Shown here: in pieces, positions 2,970 to 53,626 of the stretch | Layout of the letters: each line of letters begins with the position of its first letter | Position numbering within the stretch: position 1 is the stretch's first letter | Assembly (NCBI GenBank): GCA_016873395.1 | Contig: VGXG01000010.1 | Location: forward strand, 1-61,044 | Reading direction: 5' to 3' | Source: Nitrospira sp. | GTDB taxonomy: Bacteria > Nitrospirota > Nitrospiria > Nitrospirales > Nitrospiraceae | DNA length: 61,044 nucleotides | Translations under genes and position numbers: made by a program | The notes under the pieces: generated by a model | Seen by the model: only the letters and a program-made list of their open reading frames with translations | Told to the model about the DNA's origin: nothing | Database searches by the model: none

Positions 2970-4103
2970 TCATCGGGCGACCCCAAGCGGCAAATTGGCA
3001 GGTTGACAAGTCGTCTGTTTCGCTTCCAAACGTCCGTCAGTCTTGCTCACTTGTCCGCTTGTTAACTCGTCAGCTTCCTTCTGCGCCGCCAGATCGGACA
3101 GGAACCGGCGCACCAAGTCCAGAATCCTGGCCGCCACCGCCTCCAACGGCTCTGATTCGCCGATCGACAGCCAGGTGATTCCCGGCTCCTTGCGGAACCA
3201 GGTGAGCTGGCGCTTGGCGAAATGACGGGTATCCCGCTTGAGCCGCCGGACTGCCTCCTCGTACGAATACTCGCCGGCCAGGTGCCCGGCCAACTGCCGA
3301 TAGCCCAGACCCTTCATCGACCCAAGGCGCCGCCCATAGCCCTTGTCCAGCAACCCCTTGGTTTCCTGCATCAGCCCCTTGGCCAACTGGTCCTCGACCC
3401 GCTGCTCGATCCGCCGATAGAGCGCGTCGCGCGCCCGCATCAAGCCGATCAGCAGGGGCGAGAAGGGAGTCTCGGCAAAGGCATGGCGTCGGTGAGATTC
3501 GGACAGGGGCCGGCCCGACAGGCGATGCACTTCCAACGCTCGGATGATCTTGACCTGATCATGGGGATGCAGCCGTGCTGCCGATTCAGGATCGACCAGC
3601 GCGAGCTCGCGGTGCAGGTGGTCGGTCCCCTTCACGCGCGCTTCGTTCTCCAGTCGCTGCCGCAAGCTCCAATCGGCCCCCGGTCCTTCCCACAGACCCC
3701 GGATCAGCGCCCTCACGTACAGCCCTGTGCCCCCTACCACCAACGGAAGCTTCCCCAAACCATACAGCCGATCTATGTCCATCAGCGCCAGCCGACGATA
3801 TTCTCCCACATTGAACGGCTGATCCGGCCCCACCAGGTCGATCAACCGGTGCGGCACGTCCTGTCGCTCGGCCAGCGTCGGCTTGTCCATCCCGATGTCC
3901 ATGCCGCGATAGACCTGCCGGGAGTCGGCCGTCAGGACTTCCGTGTCCAGCGCCTTGGCCAGAAGGACCGCGACCCGGCTCTTCCCCACCGCGGTCGGAC
4001 CGGTGATGACGACGAGCGGCCTCTTCTCCACCGTAAGGGGTGAGGGGTGAGGGGTGAGGGGTGAAGTCTGTTCCGCCGTCGTTATCGTAGCTCGATTCAT
4101 CAC
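2970..4103 (-). CDS. miaA: tRNA dimethylallyltransferase MiaA with repeat-encoded ends
   Basis: Transfers dimethylallyl from DMAPP to A37 of tRNAs that read UNN codons. The P-loop GPTAVGKS, TADSRQVYRGMDIGMDKP, and the DxxxxxVGGTGLYVRAL region are all visible. With 377 residues it is about 60 longer than usual. The first ~25 residues (including SPLTPHPSPLT) and roughly the last 35 are encoded by the heptad repeats flanking the gene. ATG 4103 has an AAGG derived from the repeat; a GTG at 4031 (VEKRPLVVITG) would remove the N-terminal extension, so the start is uncertain. It lies 38 bp downstream of mutL. Confidence 0.92.
   Translation of the reverse strand: MMNRATITTAEQTSPLTPHPSPLTVEKRPLVVITGPTAVGKSRVAVLLAKALDTEVLTADSRQVYRGMDIGMDKPTLAERQDVPHRLIDLVGPDQPFNVGEYRRLALMDIDRLYGLGKLPLVVGGTGLYVRALIRGLWEGPGADWSLRQRLENEARVKGTDHLHRELALVDPESAARLHPHDQVKIIRALEVHRLSGRPLSESHRRHAFAETPFSPLLIGLMRARDALYRRIEQRVEDQLAKGLMQETKGLLDKGYGRRLGSMKGLGYRQLAGHLAGEYSYEEAVRRLKRDTRHFAKRQLTWFRKEPGITWLSIGESEPLEAVAARILDLVRRFLSDLAAQKEADELTSGQVSKTDGRLEAKQTTCQPANLPLGVAR
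2998..3075. repeat. Heptad-type repeat overlapping the miaA 3' end
   Basis: Degenerate 7-mers (GTTGACA, AGTCGTC, TGTTTCG, then CTTGTCC, GCTTGTT, AACTCGT) run through the mtnP-miaA gap into the last codons of miaA, so they code for its C-terminal tail. Confidence 0.65.
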
Positions 4104-4140
4104 GCCTTACACCTTACGTCTCACGCCTCACGCCTAACGG
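4036..4140. repeat. Heptad-type inverted repeat between mutL and miaA (words GGGTGAG / CTCACGC)
   Basis: Left arm: four consecutive near-perfect 7-mers GGGTGAG at about 4039-4066, lying inside the miaA N-terminal codons. Right arm: TTACACC, TTACGTC, TCACGCC, TCACGCC, TAACGGG at 4104-4140. The arms are complementary and are separated by unique sequence. Confidence 0.85.
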
Positions 4141-4141
4141 G

Positions 4142-5980
4142 TTACGCGCGGCCAAAAATTTTGTCCAATTCCTCTGCCGGAAGCCGGAGGGCCACCCGTC
4201 GGCCGTGCGGACAAGTCATGGGCAGGCCTTCCTCAACCCAGTCTTCGATCAGCTGCTTGCTTTCCGCCGGCTCCATCGCTCGACCGGCCCGGACGGCTGC
4301 ATGGCAGGCCAGCGAAGCCAGCACGGGCCGCACCCGCGCTTCCAGAGAAGAGGCGGCATTCCACTCCGACAGGTCGTCCACGAGGTCTTGAATCAACGAC
4401 TGGTAGTCGAGCCGACCCAGCAAAGCCGGCACCGCTCTGACGACGAACGAGGAGGAGCCGAAGGGCTCCAGCAGAAGCCCGAGCTTTTCCAGGTCCGGCA
4501 CGTGACGCTGAACGAGAGGGACCGCACTGGGCGCCAACTCAAGCGGCTCGGCAATGAGCAGGGGTTGCAACTCCACAGCCCGGCTCTGCCAGGCCCGCCA
4601 GAGCCGTTCAAACAGGACCCGTTCGTGAGCCGTGTGCTGGTCAATCACCTGCAGCTCCGAACCTACCTGCGCGATCAGGAACGTGCGGCTGACCTGTCCT
4701 AAGGGGGTCACCTCGGCGCCGGGGCCGATCGACACAGGACCAAGAAGCGAGACCTGGGCCGTTCCGGAATCGGCCGACCCTTGAAGCCGGCTGCTCCCCG
4801 GAGAACCTGAGAACAAGGCCGCCTGAGTGGTCCGTATCCAGCGATCCTCAGGCCGACCCTCCGCCACGAAGCTGCTCCGGCCCTCCAGACCAATCCCCCC
4901 TGCCTGCCCTGCCGACTCTATAGGCGCAGCCAGGGAGGCTCGGCCGCCTATGGCCGCGCCCGTCCGCCCACCCAGTGCCTCCCGGACCGCCTGTCTCACC
5001 GTTTGGTGAATCAGGTCCTGGTCGGCAAACCGGACTTCCCGCTTGGCCGGATGCACGTTGACGTCCACCCGCTCCGGATCGACGTCGAGAAACAGGACGT
5101 ACCGGGGATGGCGGCCCTTTGCGAGAAAGGTGCCGTAGCCATCGGAGACCGCATGGGCGACGGCCGCGTTCCTGATCGCCCGGCGGTTCACGAAGAGATC
5201 CTGGGGGGCGCGCCCGACGCGCGTCTGCGCCGCGTCGATCGTGAGCCCGTGAAGCAACAAGCCGGGCCGTTCCGCGCGCACCTCGATCATCTGCTCCAAC
5301 ACCTTGGCGCCGTAGACTTGCAGCAGACGATCCCGCCAGGAAGCCACCGCGGGATAGGTCAGCACCTCCTGCCCGTTATGCCGGAGTTGAAACTGCACCG
5401 AGAGCCACGCCAACGCCGCCTGCTGCACTACCTGACAGATATGGGAAAACTCGGTCGTCTGTGTCTTGAGAAATTTCTTCCGGGCCGGCGTATTGAAAAA
5501 GAGGTTCGCCACCTCCACCTGCGTGCCGGGCGCCGCCGCCACGTCCTCCACCTTGGTCATCGTCCCTCCGGTCACGGCCACCAGGGTGCCGACCGGTTCG
5601 TGCCGACAGGCGGTGATGAGCCGGACCTTCGAGACGGCCGCGATGCTGGGCAGGGCCTCTCCGCGAAATCCCAGGGTCGTGATCGACCACAGATCGCGCT
5701 CCGCGTACAGCTTGCTCGTCGCGTGACGCTGGAAGGCCAGTTGGGCGTCGGCTCGGCCCATGCCTTCTCCGTCATCCGCCACCCTGATCAGCCCGCGCCC
5801 GCCGTCCGTCACCTCGACGGTGATCCGGCTGCTCCCGGCATCCAGGCTGTTATCGATCAGCTCCCGCACCACCGCGGCCGGCCGCTCGACCACCTCCCCG
5901 GCCGCGATCCGGCTGGCGACTTCGCCGGGCAGAACCCGGATTCTTCCGAGACTGCCAGCCACATTCATCGAGGCCTGCAT
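4142..5980 (-). CDS. mutL: DNA mismatch repair protein MutL
   Basis: 612 residues from ATG 5980, preceded by a clear AAGGAG. GHKL ATPase of mismatch repair. ATP-site motifs are all present: EVVERPAAVVRELIDNSLDAG, DDGEGM, the ATSKL segment and GFRGEALPSI. The C-terminal dimer/endonuclease domain has DQHTAHERVLFE, which fits the metal-binding DQHA(X)2E(X)4E motif except for Thr in place of Ala, plus ACHAAVRAG and CPHGRR. It is therefore probably a nicking MutL of the kind found in bacteria without MutH. Downstream of the cpoB-like genes, upstream of miaA. Confidence 0.96.
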   Translation of the reverse strand: MQASMNVAGSLGRIRVLPGEVASRIAAGEVVERPAAVVRELIDNSLDAGSSRITVEVTDGGRGLIRVADDGEGMGRADAQLAFQRHATSKLYAERDLWSITTLGFRGEALPSIAAVSKVRLITACRHEPVGTLVAVTGGTMTKVEDVAAAPGTQVEVANLFFNTPARKKFLKTQTTEFSHICQVVQQAALAWLSVQFQLRHNGQEVLTYPAVASWRDRLLQVYGAKVLEQMIEVRAERPGLLLHGLTIDAAQTRVGRAPQDLFVNRRAIRNAAVAHAVSDGYGTFLAKGRHPRYVLFLDVDPERVDVNVHPAKREVRFADQDLIHQTVRQAVREALGGRTGAAIGGRASLAAPIESAGQAGGIGLEGRSSFVAEGRPEDRWIRTTQAALFSGSPGSSRLQGSADSGTAQVSLLGPVSIGPGAEVTPLGQVSRTFLIAQVGSELQVIDQHTAHERVLFERLWRAWQSRAVELQPLLIAEPLELAPSAVPLVQRHVPDLEKLGLLLEPFGSSSFVVRAVPALLGRLDYQSLIQDLVDDLSEWNAASSLEARVRPVLASLACHAAVRAGRAMEPAESKQLIEDWVEEGLPMTCPHGRRVALRLPAEELDKIFGRA

Positions 5981-12551: not shown

Positions 12552-12603
12552 GACCGGGAGTTTTTAGTTTTGAGTTTTTAGTCGGGAGCTTTTAGCTCAA
12601 ATT
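12552..12603. repeat. Heptad-type repeat downstream of xerD (word AGTTTTN)
   Basis: Consecutive 7-mers AGTTTTT, AGTTTTG, AGTTTTT, AGTCGGG, AGCTTTT in the gap between xerD and the tRNA genes. Only one arm is visible. The rest of this 315-bp stretch holds the tRNAs and no gene. Confidence 0.7.
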
Positions 12604-13713: not shown

Positions 13714-13957
13714 CTAGCCCGCATTATTCATGAACGCTTCTGCTGCAATCGTGGTTCCGCTGCTGGGCACCCGTTGCTCCAAGATTGCAATGGGTCCCGG
13801 CTTGGCCGCGGGTTTCCAGCGGCCAAGCGGGCGGGCTCGCCGCTTGGTCGGTCAACATACTGTTCAAGTATGTCTCCCTCCCTCGCGGCTCCACGCGCCC
13901 GTCTCGTTACGCGGCTCCGCGATTTCACGACGAACCGTCATGAATAATGCGGGCTAG
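13714..13957. mobile_element. MITE-like element with 20-bp perfect inverted termini
   Basis: Termini CTAGCCCGCATTATTCATGA at 13714-13733 and its exact reverse complement at 13938-13957; total 244 bp with no coding capacity. The interior holds several small hairpins (for example CCAGCGGCCAAGCGG / CCGCTTGG). The outermost CTAG is palindromic and could be either part of the terminus or a 4-bp target duplication. It ends six bases before the ATG of the next gene. The ends resemble, from memory, those associated with IS1380-type elements; that link is unverified. Confidence 0.85.
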
Positions 13958-29995: not shown

Positions 29996-30128
29996 TTTCA
30001 CTGGAGGCAAAGTAACTACCCGCTCACAGCAAAGAAAAAGTTATCAGTCCTCAGTTTTCGGTTTTCAGTTTCATGACTGAAGACTGATGACTGAAAACTG
30101 ACCACTCGCTAGCAAGCTTGGTATGGAG
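29996..30128 (+). promoter_or_regulatory. Leader module upstream of bioB, hairpin disrupted
   Basis: Block A TTTCACTGGAGGCAAAGTAACTA split as 29996-30018 and block B CTAGCAAGCTTGGTATGGAG at 30109-30128 are identical to those in the mraZ leader. The hairpin's 5' arm CCGCTCAC (30020-30027) is present, but its 3' arm is missing: a heptad-type palindrome occupies the space. Block B ends in the ribosome binding site, seven bases before the bioB ATG. Confidence 0.8.
30041..30102. repeat. Heptad-type inverted repeat inside the bioB leader
   Basis: Left TCAGTCC, TCAGTTT, TCGGTTT, TCAGTTT; right ACTGAAG, ACTGATG, ACTGAAA, ACTGACC. It replaces the 3' half of the leader hairpin. Confidence 0.85.
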
Positions 30129-30135
30129 AACGACG

Positions 30136-37769: not shown

Positions 37770-37782
37770 AGATAATGACACG

Positions 37783-37920
37783 GGCGGCAAAAAACTCTCC
37801 GCTCACATTTGATCGAAGTGAGCGGTTCAAGCGAAGTTTGATCAATATTTCACTGGAGGCAAAGTAACTATCCGCCGCGATATGATCGAACGCGGCGGCT
37901 CTAGCAAGCTTGGTATGGAG
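37783..37920 (+). promoter_or_regulatory. Tandem hairpin leader module upstream of mraZ (candidate structured RNA)
   Basis: Two units. Unit 1: GGCGGCAAAAAACTCT then hairpin CCGCTCAC (37799-37806), loop ATTTGATCGAA (37807-37817), GTGAGCGG (37818-37825). Unit 2: block A at 37848-37870, then hairpin CCGCCGCG (37872-37879), loop ATATGATCGAA (37880-37890), CGCGGCGG (37891-37898), then block B CTAGCAAGCTTGGTATGGAG (37901-37920), whose end is the ribosome binding site seven bases before ATG. The stems differ but pair perfectly; the loops are nearly identical. Confidence 0.85.
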
Positions 37921-37927
37921 GCGCATC

Positions 37928-38377
37928 ATGTTCGCCGGTTCCTATCCGTGCAAATTGGATGAGAAGGGCCGCTTCATCGTGCCGTCCCCCATGAGGGAAC
38001 GGCTGGAGGCCGAAGGCAACGGCGTCGTCTTCATCAAGGGGCCGGAGCAGTCGCTCTGGGTCTATTCCACGGTCGAGTGGGAAAAGGTCCTGGAAAGCGC
38101 CCGGGCGAAGCTGGACGAAGATCAGAGCCGGCTGTTCATGCACACGGTCGTCTCCGAGGCCGGCACCTCCGATGTGGACAAGGCGGGACGGGTCCTGATT
38201 CCGGGGCGCCTCCGCAAGATGGTGCCGGTAGAGGAAGATTTGGAAATCGTGCTGGTGGGCCTCTTCAACCACCTGGAGATCTGGAACCCCTCCGAGTGGC
38301 GCCGGTACCTGAGCCGCAACGAAGAAAAAAGCGAACAGGCTTTGAGCAAAATCTCCAACCTTCTCTCACATAGGTAA
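37928..38377 (+). CDS. mraZ: Transcriptional regulator MraZ
   Basis: 149 residues from ATG 37928 (FAGSYPCKLDEKGRFIVPSPMRERL), which fits the conserved MraZ N terminus; an in-frame TTG inside the ribosome binding site is rejected. Two SpoVT/AbrB-like half domains with the DxxGR motifs (DEKGRF and DKAGRVLIPGRLRKM). MraZ binds DNA repeats before the division-cell-wall cluster and represses it. Here it is not followed by mraW/rsmH: a RusA-type gene follows by 1 bp. Confidence 0.95.
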   Translation: MFAGSYPCKLDEKGRFIVPSPMRERLEAEGNGVVFIKGPEQSLWVYSTVEWEKVLESARAKLDEDQSRLFMHTVVSEAGTSDVDKAGRVLIPGRLRKMVPVEEDLEIVLVGLFNHLEIWNPSEWRRYLSRNEEKSEQALSKISNLLSHR

Positions 38378-39105: not shown

Positions 39106-40347
39106 TTACTCGTATCTGAGGGCTTCGATCGGATTAAGCCGGGAGGCCTTATTGGCGGGATAGAGGCCGAAGAAGAGTCCCACGGCCAGGGAGAAGAGAA
39201 AGGCGATCAGGATGGATTCGGCCGAGATGATCGTCGGCCAGCCGGCCAGCATCGTGGTCGCGCGGGCGCCCACGACGCCGAATAGGATCCCCACGATCCC
39301 ACCGACCAGGCTCAGGGTCATGGCCTCGATCAGGAACTGCGCCAGGATATGGCGCCGCTTGGCCCCCACCGCCATCCGCACGCCGATCTCGCGGGTCCGC
39401 TCGGTGACCGAGACCAGCAGGATATTCATGATCCCGATGCCTCCGACCAGCAGCGAGATCGAGGCCACGGCGAACATCATGAGCGTGAGGGTATGGCTAG
39501 TCCCTTCCTGTACCTTCCCGATGTCCACCTGGGTACGGATCGTGAAGTCGTCCGGCTGGTCCGGCTGGAGACGGTGTCGGGCCCGCAGCACATCGCGGAT
39601 GGCCTCCACCGCGGCCGGCAGGTCTTCCGGATGATCGGTGGACGCGAACAGGGCGCCCACTGAGCCCAGGAACTGCGTGCCCAAGACTTTCCGCTCCGCC
39701 GTCGTGAAGGGGATAAACACGATGTCGTCCTGGTCCGATCCCTGCGCCGATTGTCCCTTGGGTGCCAGGACCCCGACGACCTTGAACGGCACGTTCTTGA
39801 TCCGGATCGCGGAACCGACCGGCTCCTCTCCCAGCTCGAACAGGTTCTCGACCACCGTCTGTCCGATCAGCGCCACGCGGGCCCCAGCGTCCATGTCCAC
39901 TTGGGTGATCGGCCCCCCGCTGCTGTAGGACCAGTCCCGGATCGTCAGATAGCCGGGAGAGATCCCATTCACCGGCACGTTCCAGTTCTTGTTGCCCGCC
40001 ACGACCTGCATCACATCCCGCTTCGACCAGGCCGTCTCGCTGAGTAAGGGAATCTTCTTCTTGAAATCGAGGGCGTCGGCCATGGTCAAGGTCACGGCGC
40101 TCCCCTGCGCGCCCCGCACCCCGCCGACGGTGGTGGCGCCCGGCAGGACGATGATCACGTTGGTCCCCATGCTGGCCACCTGGGCTCGCACCGCCGCCTT
40201 GGCTCCCTCCCCGATACTGACCATCGCGATCACCGCCCCCACGCCGATGATGATACCCAGCATCGTGAGGCCGGCCCTCAGCCGGTTCCGGCTCAAGATG
40301 CGGAAGGCGGTCATGATCGTTAGCAGGAGAAAGGCGCCCATAATCAT
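39106..40347 (-). CDS. macB: MacB-type ABC transporter permease
   Basis: 413 residues. N-terminal helix (AFRILSRNRLRAGLTMLGIIIGVGAVIAMVSIGEGAK), a large periplasmic MacB_PCD domain, then the FtsX domain with three helices (TLMMFAVASISLLVGGIGIMNILLVSVTERTREIGVRMAVGAK). Tripartite pumps of this kind export macrolides, peptides or siderophores in other bacteria. It is fed by the ATPase gene with a 4-bp overlap. No outer-membrane TolC gene is in the window. The MacB domains are split over two proteins. Confidence 0.92.
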   Translation of the reverse strand: MIMGAFLLLTIMTAFRILSRNRLRAGLTMLGIIIGVGAVIAMVSIGEGAKAAVRAQVASMGTNVIIVLPGATTVGGVRGAQGSAVTLTMADALDFKKKIPLLSETAWSKRDVMQVVAGNKNWNVPVNGISPGYLTIRDWSYSSGGPITQVDMDAGARVALIGQTVVENLFELGEEPVGSAIRIKNVPFKVVGVLAPKGQSAQGSDQDDIVFIPFTTAERKVLGTQFLGSVGALFASTDHPEDLPAAVEAIRDVLRARHRLQPDQPDDFTIRTQVDIGKVQEGTSHTLTLMMFAVASISLLVGGIGIMNILLVSVTERTREIGVRMAVGAKRRHILAQFLIEAMTLSLVGGIVGILFGVVGARATTMLAGWPTIISAESILIAFLFSLAVGLFFGLYPANKASRLNPIEALRYE

Positions 40348-41057
40348 CCGTGAGGCGTGAGGGGTAAGGCGTGAGGAGTGCCTGAACGGTCGCTCACGAC
40401 CTGCCCGTCCTTGACCAGGATCTGCCGCAAGGCATAGGCCGCGATGTCCTTCTCGTGCGTGACCAGGATCACGGTGATGCCGTCCTCTTGATTCAGCCGC
40501 TCCAGAGTCTTCATGATCTCCCGGCTGGACTCGGTATCCAAATTCCCGGTCGGCTCGTCGGCCAGCAGAATCGACGGAGCGGACACGAGGGCCCGCGCAA
40601 TCGCCACCCGCTGTTGTTGCCCGCCGGACAACTGGGCCGGATAATGCTGTTCCCGGCCGGAGAGCCCGACTCGCGCAAGCGCCGAGGCGGCCCGTGCCCG
40701 CTGCTCGCGCAGCGACAGCCCCCTGTAAAACAGCGGGAGCTGGGCGTTCTCCAAGGCGCTGGTTCGGGGGATCAAGTTGAAATTCTGGAAGACGAACCCG
40801 ATCTTCCGGTTCCGGATCTCCGCCAGCTCATCCTGACCGGCGCGCGCCACATCCAGCCCGTCCAGCCAGTAACCGCCTTTGGTCGGCAGATCCAGGCAGC
40901 CCACGATGTTCATCAGCGTGGATTTCCCGGAGCCGGACGCGCCCATGACCGCGACGAACTCTCCGCGCGTGATGTCCAGGCTCACGCCTCGCAGAGCCTG
41001 CACCTCCACGTCACCCAGCCGATAGATTTTCCAGATGTCTTGGCAGGAGATGAGCAT
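40344..41057 (-). CDS. MacB-type ABC transporter ATP-binding protein
   Basis: 237 residues. Walker [18 protein letters not shown], signature [16 protein letters not shown], Walker [10 protein letters not shown] and switch His in [12 protein letters not shown]. It pairs with the permease directly downstream. The final ~12 residues ([12 protein letters not shown]) are encoded by a heptad repeat, and the stop overlaps the permease start. Confidence 0.93.
40349..40381. repeat. Heptad-type repeat inside the 3' end of the pump ATPase gene
   Basis: GAGGCGT, GAGGGGT, AAGGCGT, GAGGAGT. One arm only; it codes for the C-terminal tail of the ATPase. Confidence 0.75.
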
Positions 41058-43459: not shown

Positions 43460-43465
43460 TCCACC

Positions 43466-43569
43466 CTCCATACCAACCTTCGGTTGAGCCGCCCGCTTCG
43501 ATCACATGCGGGCGGAGAGGTCTTTTGCCGCCAGTGTTCTTGCCCCATCACATGCAAGCGGAGAGTTAG
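43466..43569 (-). promoter_or_regulatory. Tandem hairpin leader module upstream of the HhH lipoprotein
   Basis: Read on the minus strand. Unit 1 has AACTCTCCGC and a degenerate hairpin CTTGC / GCAAG (43554-43558 / 43539-43543). Unit 2 has CACTGGCGGCAAAAGACCTCT, hairpin CCGCCCGC (43508-43515), loop ATGTGATCGAA (43497-43507), GCGGGCGG (43489-43496), then GAAGGTTGGTATGGAG (43466-43481). It has the same layout as the mraZ leader. The remaining sequence up to uppP (43570-43864) holds no gene that I can support, apart from a short GGCCAT/ATGGCC palindrome near 43760. Confidence 0.8.
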
Positions 43570-43864
43570 CCTGCCCCTCGCGAGCGTTGTTTCGTGCTTC
43601 TCTCCAGCCTCCTGACATGCCGCACAAATTCATCGTTATCACCTATTCTCTAGCTTGGGAGCTTGTGATGATGTGTAGTCGATCAGGCCGGTTTTGTCAA
43701 TAGCGCTCCATGATAGTTCTCGATGTGTCGCCTGCTTGAAAACCCGCGTATTGCGTCTGGCCATAAGGTCATGGCCGGTCTTGACTCTGCCTCCCGACTA
43801 ATGTGATGATGCCGCCTGCTCTTTGCCTTGGGCTTGTTCCCCTGTACAACTGGGATGGCGTTGG

Positions 43865-48417: not shown

Positions 48418-48493
48418 CTCGTAAGGCGTAAGGGGTTAGGCGTGAGGGGACACACATCACTCCCCTTACGTTTCACGCCTCACGTTTCACGTC
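48418..48493. repeat. Heptad-type inverted repeat between nadA and ileS (words AAGGCGT / TCACGCC)
   Basis: GTAAGGC, GTAAGGG, GTTAGGC, GTGAGGG and on the right CCTTACG, TTTCACG, CCTCACG, TTTCACG. Same word family as at 4036 and 53548. Confidence 0.85.
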
Positions 48494-48497
48494 TGGG

Positions 48498-49601
48498 TTA
48501 ACTTACCGCCATCATGCGGTCCAGTGCGATTTTGGCCCAGGCCTTTTCATCGTCCGGCACGACGATGTGGTTGACGACGTGTCCGTCGGCCAGGTTTTCC
48601 ATCGCCCAGCAAAGGTGGGGGGCATCAATCCGGAACATGGTCGCACATTGGCAGACCGTGGAAGAAAGGAAGAAGACCCGCTTGTCAGCCTGCTCACGCT
48701 TGAGCCGGTTGACCAGGTTCAGCTCCGTGCCGACCGCCCAAGCCGTACCGGCTGAAGCCGAACTTACCGTCCTGATGATGAATTCCGTGGAGCCGACGAG
48801 GTCCGCCCGATTCACCACCTCCTCGTGACATTCCGGATGGACAATGACCTTAACGCCGGGATACTTTTTCCGGAAGTAGTCCACGTGCGCCGGCTGGAAC
48901 ATCTGGTGCACGCTGCAGTGGCCTTTCCAGAGGATCAGCCTCGCCTTCCGGACCGCTTCAGTGCTGTTGCCGCCGTTGGGCAGGAAGGGGTCCCAGACGA
49001 TCATCGCGTCGCGCGGCAATCCCATCTTGTTCGCCGTATTGCGCCCCAGGTGCTCATCGGGGAAAAACAGGATTTTCTCGCGCCGCGCCCAGGCCCAGTC
49101 CATCACCGCCCTGGCGTTGGAGGAGGTGCAGGTGATACCGCCGTGCTCCCCGCAAAACGCCTTGAGCACCGCCGCCGAGTTCACATAGACCACCGGCGTG
49201 ACCGTCTCCTCCACGGGAATGATTCGCGCCAAGGCGTCCCAGCATTCATCCACTTGCTCGATCGCCGCCATGTCGGCCATGGAGCAGCCGGCTGCCAGGT
49301 CCGGGAGGATGACGGTCTGTTTGGACCGGCTGAGGATGTCGGCCGTTTCGGCCATGAAGTGCACGCCGCAAAAGACGATGTACGGTCGCTCGGCCCGTGC
49401 CGCCGCCAGCTTGGCCAGCAGCAACGAGTCCCCGCGGAAATCGGCATGCTCGATCACTTCATCACGTTGGTAGTTGTGGCCCAAGATGAGCACCCGGTCC
49501 CCGAGCGCCTGCTTGGCCGCCGCCGTGCGGGCGAACAGCTCTTCCGGCGTGAGCGCCTGAAAGTCGGCCACCGGACGTGGGACAGTCTCAACGGATTTCA
49601 T
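48498..49601 (-). CDS. nadA: Quinolinate synthase
   Basis: 367 residues. Condenses iminoaspartate with dihydroxyacetone phosphate to quinolinate using a 4Fe-4S cluster. LILGHNYQRDEV, the first Cys in FCGVHFMAETA, VYVNSAAVLKAFCGEHGGITCTSSNA, HPECHEEV, and a distal SSTVCQCATM carry the cluster ligands. Longer than the E. coli form, close to the Gram-positive type. Together with nadD in this window it supplies de novo NAD synthesis. It has its own promoter at 49672. Confidence 0.95.
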   Translation of the reverse strand: MKSVETVPRPVADFQALTPEELFARTAAAKQALGDRVLILGHNYQRDEVIEHADFRGDSLLLAKLAAARAERPYIVFCGVHFMAETADILSRSKQTVILPDLAAGCSMADMAAIEQVDECWDALARIIPVEETVTPVVYVNSAAVLKAFCGEHGGITCTSSNARAVMDWAWARREKILFFPDEHLGRNTANKMGLPRDAMIVWDPFLPNGGNSTEAVRKARLILWKGHCSVHQMFQPAHVDYFRKKYPGVKVIVHPECHEEVVNRADLVGSTEFIIRTVSSASAGTAWAVGTELNLVNRLKREQADKRVFFLSSTVCQCATMFRIDAPHLCWAMENLADGHVVNHIVVPDDEKAWAKIALDRMMAVS

Positions 49602-49797: not shown

Positions 49798-49810
49798 CTC
49801 TTTCCATAGC

Positions 49811-49935
49811 TAGGGGAGCCCAGGAGTCTGGCGGAGGATTAGGAGTGATCCTCCGTCAGACTCCCTAGGCTGAGAGTCCGACCCAGCGGACGACCCTCAG
49901 AACCTGACCTGGATAATACCAGCGTAGGGAAGCGG
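49811..49935 (+). ncRNA. TPP riboswitch (THI element) with a long P3 arm
   Basis: GGGGAGCCC at 49813, GGCTGAGAGT at about 49867, GACCCTCAGAACCTGACC and GGATAATACCAGCGTAGGGAA: the complete THI-box core that binds thiamine pyrophosphate. The P3 side arm is extended by a 17-bp stem (GGAGTCTGGCGGAGGAT / ATCCTCCGTCAGACTCC) whose sequence resembles the terminal repeat of the element at 9735-9922. Controls thiC downstream, together with the terminator at 49963. Confidence 0.95.
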
Positions 49936-49962
49936 CGCAGAAGCGACTCGGCAGCGAGGCAG

Positions 49963-53030: not shown

Positions 53031-53546
53031 ATGGACATTCAGGATTTTCTCTTCCAAGGGGAAGGCAGCGAGCAGGACAAGCGGGAGGCCTGGCATTGGT
53101 TCCAGCAGGCCTACGAGCATCAAATGAAAGGCGAGCTTGAGGAAGCCGTCACCCTTTACAAACGCTCGCTCGAGACTCATCCCACCGCCGAGGCCTACAC
53201 CTTCCTCGGCTGGACCTATAGCTTCATGGGCAAGCTGGACGAAGCGATCGACGAATGTCATCGCGCCATCGCGATGGACCCTGAGTTCGGCAACCCGTAC
53301 AACGACATCGGCGCCTATCTGATCGAGCAAGGCAAGTATGATGAGGCGATTCCCTGGTTCGAGCGGGCTCTGCTGGCCAAACGGTATGAGAGCCCGGCCT
53401 TCCCCCATCTGAACCTCGGCCGTGTCTACGAACGGAAGGGGCAATGGGACCACGCCCTCGAGTCCTATAAGAAAGCGTTGACGCTCAATCCGAACTATGC
53501 CCTGGCGAGGCGAGCCCTGGGGCGCCTGATCGGCATGCTCAACTAA
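53031..53546 (+). CDS. TPR-repeat protein
   Basis: 171 residues from ATG 53031 (MDIQDFLFQGEG). An alternative ATG at 53007 lies inside the repeat and is less likely. Four TPR units (EEAVTLYKRSLETHPTAEAYTFLGWTYSFMGKLDEAIDECHRAI and following). No signal peptide, so cytoplasmic. Function unknown; it precedes the pseudo-receiver gene. Confidence 0.85.
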   Translation: MDIQDFLFQGEGSEQDKREAWHWFQQAYEHQMKGELEEAVTLYKRSLETHPTAEAYTFLGWTYSFMGKLDEAIDECHRAIAMDPEFGNPYNDIGAYLIEQGKYDEAIPWFERALLAKRYESPAFPHLNLGRVYERKGQWDHALESYKKALTLNPNYALARRALGRLIGMLN

Positions 53547-53547
53547 C

Positions 53548-53626
53548 CGTAAGGGGTGAGGGGTGAGGCGTAAGGGGACTGGACGTATTTGTACACCTTA
53601 CCCCTCACGCCTAACGCCTCACGATC
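53548..53626. repeat. Heptad-type inverted repeat (words GTAAGGG / CCTCACG)
   Basis: GTAAGGG, GTGAGGG, GTGAGGC, GTAAGGG on the left and CCTTACC, CCTCACG, CCTAACG, CCTCACG on the right. Confidence 0.85.

Follow-up and report, generated by a model that had tools for sequence, protein, structure and literature searches.

The leader of mraZ in this Nitrospira sp. genome raises the question of whether a structured regulatory RNA or a repetitive element stands before the gene. The window analysed here is the whole 61,044-nucleotide stretch of contig VGXG01000010.1 (assembly GCA_016873395.1). A pattern search of the window with CCGCNNNNATNTGATCGAANNNNGCGG gave three exact matches, at 37799-37825 (+), 37872-37898 (+), and 43489-43515 (-), compared with a chance expectation of 0.06. 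These are the two hairpins before mraZ and the third elsewhere in the window that were described in a first-pass annotation, which read them as a riboswitch-like or protein-binding leader RNA. The present analyses suggest a different answer: mraZ is probably preceded by a tandem pair of copies of a mobile-type hairpin repeat found in Nitrospirota, one that is dispersed, modular, and non-autonomous. The repeat family is apparently undescribed, and is apparently not a conserved mraZ switch. A search of the literature on repeats in Nitrospira or on repeats landing on Shine-Dalgarno sequences (SDs) found no description of it.

The tandem consists of two type I units on the + strand. The upstream unit (37777..37847; covariance model match, 63 bits) ends with the linker GATCAATATTTCAC in place of GGTATGGAGG; its 8-bp main stem (P1) and 11-nt loop, CCGCTCAC-ATTTGATCGAA-GTGAGCGG, are an exact pattern match at 37799..37825. 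The mraZ-proximal unit (37849..37921; 95 bits) is complete, with the right border GGTAT directly followed by GGAGG. It contains P1 and its loop at 37872..37898 (CCGCCGCG-ATATGATCGAA-CGCGGCGG, exact pattern match) and an imperfect form of the small second hairpin (P2), TCTAGC-AA-GCTTGG, at 37900..37913, assigned by the consensus helix that covaries in other copies. By position, the GGAGG at 37917..37921 (+) is the mraZ SD, flush with the right border of the element; GGAGG also stands at the same place in an empty orthologous mraZ site. The mraZ gene itself (37928..38377, +, 149 aa) is a host gene outside the element, and MraZ was found in 73 of 78 family genomes. The third type I unit (43465..43538, - strand; 92 bits; P1 at 43489-43515) lies before a lipoprotein-like gene with its start codon at ~43459, and a probable decayed upstream copy, CTAACTCTCCGCTTGCATGTGATGGGGCAAG, was read from the sequence at 43545..43575 (-). 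A type III copy occupies 29997..30129 on the + strand (also given as 30001-30124), before a gene start at ~30136, with a weak covariance model match at 29997-30090. Its 5' module is CTGGAGGCAAAGTAACTACCCGC, its 3' module is CTAGCAAGCTTGGTAT followed directly by GGAGA, and an unrelated heptad-repeat hairpin stands between them.

Alignment of 28 copies gave the unit as TTTACTGGAGGCAAAGTAACTAT-CCGCNNNN-ATNTGATCGAA-NNNNGCGG-TTCAAGCGAAGCTTGGTATGGAGG. Two-sided changes were observed in six pairs of the 8-bp stem and in two pairs of P2, which forms a second small covarying hairpin within the 3' block (CAAGC-GAA-GCTTG). The unit is made up of a 5' module (..CTGGAGGCAAAGTAACTATCC), an exchangeable hairpin, and a 3' module which carries the small hairpin and ends in GGTAT; at mraZ, the exchangeable hairpin is the 8-bp GC stem with the TGATCGAA loop core. 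The covarying stems seen by the first-pass annotation extend well past its three original copies: across 78 copies, 98.7% of the P1 cells are paired, with 143 double changes and 1 G-U in ~609 cells. The 3' block is real as well: it reads TTCAAGC(G)AAGCTTGGTATGGAGG and overlaps the SD. The loop, described as invariant over 11 nt, is near-invariant in its core TGATCGAA, but its first three bases vary. A wider sample of P1 in named genomes contained 843 Watson-Crick, 3 G-U, and 10 unpaired cells. G-U pairs are normally tolerated in RNA helices as intermediates. Their near absence from P1, as expected of a DNA palindrome, suggests that such a palindrome is under constraint, or that some process keeps both arms identical.

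Three hairpin types were identified between the common 5' and 3' modules, and tandem and nested forms are frequent. Type I has the TGATCGAA loop; type II has TTCGATAAAGCG-like loops; type III consists of the heptads AGTTTTC/ACTGAAA. The home-genome copies on the tRNA side are often type II. Some type I hairpins contain a small hairpin, ACCCGTCGAGAGCCTCTGGGTCGA, within the loop (G000:C1:21382, C34:23417, and C27:23687). The sequence of the type III inner hairpin is that of AGTTTTC/ACTGAAA-type 7/14-nt heptad repeats, which form several families of intergenic hairpins; in the window they occur at 12559, 16000, 21853, 27304, 30046, 35167, 52043, 55266, and other positions. A second heptad hairpin family, GTGAGGG / CCTCACG, was found at window positions 4030-4146, 40347-40380, 48418-48498, and 53546-53623, with inverted partners at the same places. 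The window also holds an inverted repeat with 47-nt arms 150 nt apart (13714-13957; CCCGCATTATTCATGAACGCTTCTGC). Similar sequence lies near copies in L022 and L068, so this is probably another dispersed repeat. A TPP riboswitch was identified at 49802-49947 (Rfam RF00059, 63 bits).

The home genome is a fragmented metagenome assembly of 2.34 Mb, and its sequence was read as stretches around the matches. With up to 3 mismatches allowed, the CCGCNNNNATNTGATCGAANNNNGCGG pattern was found at 52 places, ~43 of them real hairpins; the reversed-pattern control gave 0 matches at the same threshold. The covariance model gave 77 matches at E<0.001 and 122 at E<=10, so that copies and variants number about 80-120 in this genome. 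Beyond it, covariance model matches were found in 49 of 100 relatives, and the family reaches far beyond the three copies first noted. Among these relatives, the copy number by this model varies from genus to genus, between 0 and ~50. When 85,000 species were scanned for the exact pattern, at least 103 stretches were obtained; among the matches listed, almost every title names Nitrospira or Nitrospirota, apart from a single short contig binned as Aquabacterium.

The placement of these copies is not random. In the home genome, an open reading frame starts 3-9 nt after GGNGG at 55 of 84 right ends, compared with 11.9% for shifted positions and 8/83 for the opposite side, read outward. The association with SDs is therefore real, and the proposal that the copies are placed non-randomly before start codons holds in this genome. 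Such orientation and spacing, together with the covariation and the near-invariant loop core, would favour a cis-acting regulatory RNA, riboswitch-like or protein-bound, which controls translation of a dispersed regulon. The downstream genes are functionally diverse, which speaks against this reading.

Other landing sites also argue against a leader RNA. At 11 of 20 home tRNA genes, CCA is followed directly by TACCAAGC, which is the element in antisense; these 20 genes are a sample from stretches chosen around the element, and 11 is a minimum. In relatives, the antisense element was also found behind Ala, Thr, Arg, Phe, Gly, Lys, Leu, and Glu tRNAs. Of 107 copies in the named genomes, 62 sit within a larger palindrome and have GTACCTCC after them. 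Among the others, 6 abut tRNAs and 5 abut SDs by a strict script test, with 29 unclassified, several of them visibly tRNA or palindrome cases. The border GGTAT followed by G is common to the SD, tRNA, and palindrome contexts. The larger palindrome is ~230-250 bp long, with a type I hairpin in its centre, and occurs in many Nitrospira genomes (L265, L266, L276; 62 copies). Its ends read CAGGATG(T/C)TGAAAAAG .. CTTTTTGA(A/G)CATCCTG, and it looks like a separate repeat family. In G030, G038, and G043, tRNA-Leu or tRNA-Lys ends that bear the element in G019 are joined to other sequence (L288, L289, L290, L293, L298); by eye, this flank encodes a tyrosine integrase C-terminus. In G019 (L263), the border GGTATGGACCCG appears to provide the start codon of the open reading frame ATGGACCCGAAG...

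Orthologous sites were compared next to the same genes. The element was found before mraZ in 0 of 27 readable leaders of relatives. The nearest MraZ proteins, in G007 and G035 (~92% identical), both have plain leaders; in G035, taacaaGGAGGcgcctccATG takes the place of the home array, which ends ..ggtatGGAGGcgcatcATG. For 17 element-bearing home genes, ortholog sites were sought with a chimeric protein query confined to the nearest neighbouring genus, g8, and 29 of 30 orthologous starts were empty with a plain SD. The sole filled site of the 30 is the thioredoxin gene in G025, which is empty in G035; one more filled site, besides the 30 starts, is L250. Three gene starts in genus g20 show different patterns: the first carries the element in G019 and G038 and is empty in G030, the second carries it in G019 alone of these three, and the third carries it in all four, with differing stems. 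Dispersed copies with both filled and empty orthologous sites, polymorphic within a genus, were thus found, as is characteristic of a mobile repeat. The starts of trx, a GYD-domain gene, and the MFQEEK gene are occupied in the home genome and in distant genera, which might be taken in favour of a regulatory RNA. At some gene starts, distant genera are filled and nearer genera are empty. This could reflect repeated use of some sites, or the survival of old copies that have been lost elsewhere; such starts, which count against the mobile-repeat reading, could be ancient, selectively kept copies with losses.

The predicted RNA folds bear on the same question. For the mraZ-proximal unit taken singly, stability does not exceed that of shuffled sequence (z 0.42), and the two-unit leader is only mildly stable (z -1.40). 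In the single-unit fold, GGUAU is unpaired and the SD is weakly paired with the mraZ coding start. Sequestration of the SD was considered and rejected on these grounds: GGUAU is free, the SD pairing is weak, and the fold does not outdo shuffled sequence. The bottom strand, folded as DNA, forms the main stem alone (z -2.32). An Rfam search with the element gave no family at the gathering score or at E<=10. With the orthologous leaders empty, the copies antisense to tRNAs or, in other Nitrospira, mostly inside the larger palindrome, unrelated hairpins exchanged between the same ends, and G-U pairs nearly absent, the regulatory RNA interpretation is very improbable.

A related possibility is that the repeat is mobile-type by origin and now serves as a functional 5' UTR at certain sites, where a stable hairpin 20 nt before the SD would protect processed operon mRNA or tune initiation. 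Where the element precedes a gene, the SD is good and spaced 3-9 nt from the start; copies occur inside operons (such as between clpP and clpX); a number of gene starts are used again or kept in different genera; and expression can be altered by BOX and similar repeats (PMC3049150). However, the nearest relatives run the same genes without the element, and we consider adoption improbable. This proposal is compatible with the mobile-repeat explanation and does not oppose it, and the element may affect translation or have a regulatory use at some sites.

The mobile-repeat interpretation may be extended to a mechanism. Copies would arise by transposition-like insertion of a DNA hairpin, with the stem kept as a DNA palindrome for the insertion process. 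The right border meets GG(nG), which in intergenic DNA is mainly found in SDs or, on the other strand, in tRNA CCA ends, and this would account for the abutment on both. Placement at SDs might result from the target motif together with selection against copies that land within genes; insertions would be kept where they are harmless, which in compact genomes is before genes and behind tRNAs. A bolder form of this proposal is integration by some enzyme aimed at GG(nG), with the hairpin as a cassette, rewiring dozens of translation starts in one genome. This is a tentative suggestion, on balance doubtful. If true, mobile hairpins repeatedly become gene 5' UTRs and tRNA 3' flanks.

Alternatively, the module might spread by recombination or gene conversion between dispersed palindromes (template switching at hairpins), and not by transposition. 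The arrays, nested hairpins, and ragged left borders would fit such a process, as would the porC start, a single site at which stems are swapped within one genus (CCGCCGCG vs CCGACCCC). However, unrelated sites all have an exact right border that abuts GG. A site-specific step seems to be needed for this, and recombination as the means of spread is unlikely.

The left side of the mobile-type repeat is less regular. At clpX, trx, and ftsH, the old SD is retained on the left of the element, the arrangement expected from a target duplication. These three sites prompted the proposal that GGAG is duplicated in general, which a count then weakened: GGAG stands left of 11 of 41 first copies, compared with 15% in controls, and the left borders are ragged, so target duplication is not established in general. 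By eye, AATCTAAGCCTA / ATACCAAGCTTG weakly resemble terminal inverted repeats, and the left ends vary. Several mobilisers were considered. IS200/IS605 or RAYT (Y1) enzymes were rejected, with no copy-number correlation (Y1 transposase vs copy number, Spearman 0.19, p 0.14) and none beside copies; the home Y1 locus has no element copy beside it, and G004, G019, G023, G028, and G038 have many copies and no Y1 match. Reverse transcriptases and serine recombinases were also rejected, as they showed no pattern in 18 high- and zero-copy genomes. The home genome yielded no long parent copy that carries genes.

The mobile-repeat reading explains a striking covariation signal without a regulatory RNA. 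This is a warning for motif discovery pipelines, in which mobile hairpins landing on SDs mimic new riboswitch classes. The family might also serve as a testable system for how a non-autonomous hairpin picks translation starts, and for whether Nitrospira, which are important nitrifiers, use it.

Several known systems resemble the element in part. Structured leader RNAs in Rfam, such as riboswitches and r-protein leaders, share the covarying stems, the conserved loop, and the position before SDs; the Nitrospira element differs in that it is not tied to orthologous genes, also lies antisense to tRNAs and inside palindromes, and belongs to no Rfam family. The cyanobacterial SDRs (Elhai, 2008) are reportedly very small repeats beside heptamer repeats, with mobility inferred from empty sites; their sequence and landing sites are different. 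REPIN and REP-RAYT repeats are likewise small, extragenic, clustered mobile hairpins, and REPINs show compensatory stem changes without a demonstrated RNA function (PMC3116915, PMC2817692, PMC3733652); such changes are common among them (PMC3116915). The Nitrospira element, unlike these, has no GTAG or CGTC tag, inverted doublets, or Y1/RAYT association. The BOX elements of Streptococcus pneumoniae have the order boxA-boxB-boxC, with a variable inner boxB between the constant boxA and boxC (PMC3049150). They have terminal inverted repeats and target duplications, neither of which is convincing in the Nitrospira element, whose hairpin sequence differs and whose right border goes with SDs and the CCA ends of tRNAs; in the BOX paper (PMC3049150), the term "Shine-Dalgarno" occurs only once. 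Exact abutment on SDs and tRNA CCA ends, and a central hairpin exchanged between constant ends, are unusual for a repeat family. In architecture, the level at which the comparison with PMC3049150 was made, both families are short and modular, with constant outer modules and variable, repeatable inner hairpins; both have ~100 intergenic copies, structured if transcribed, and are considered non-autonomous and mobile.
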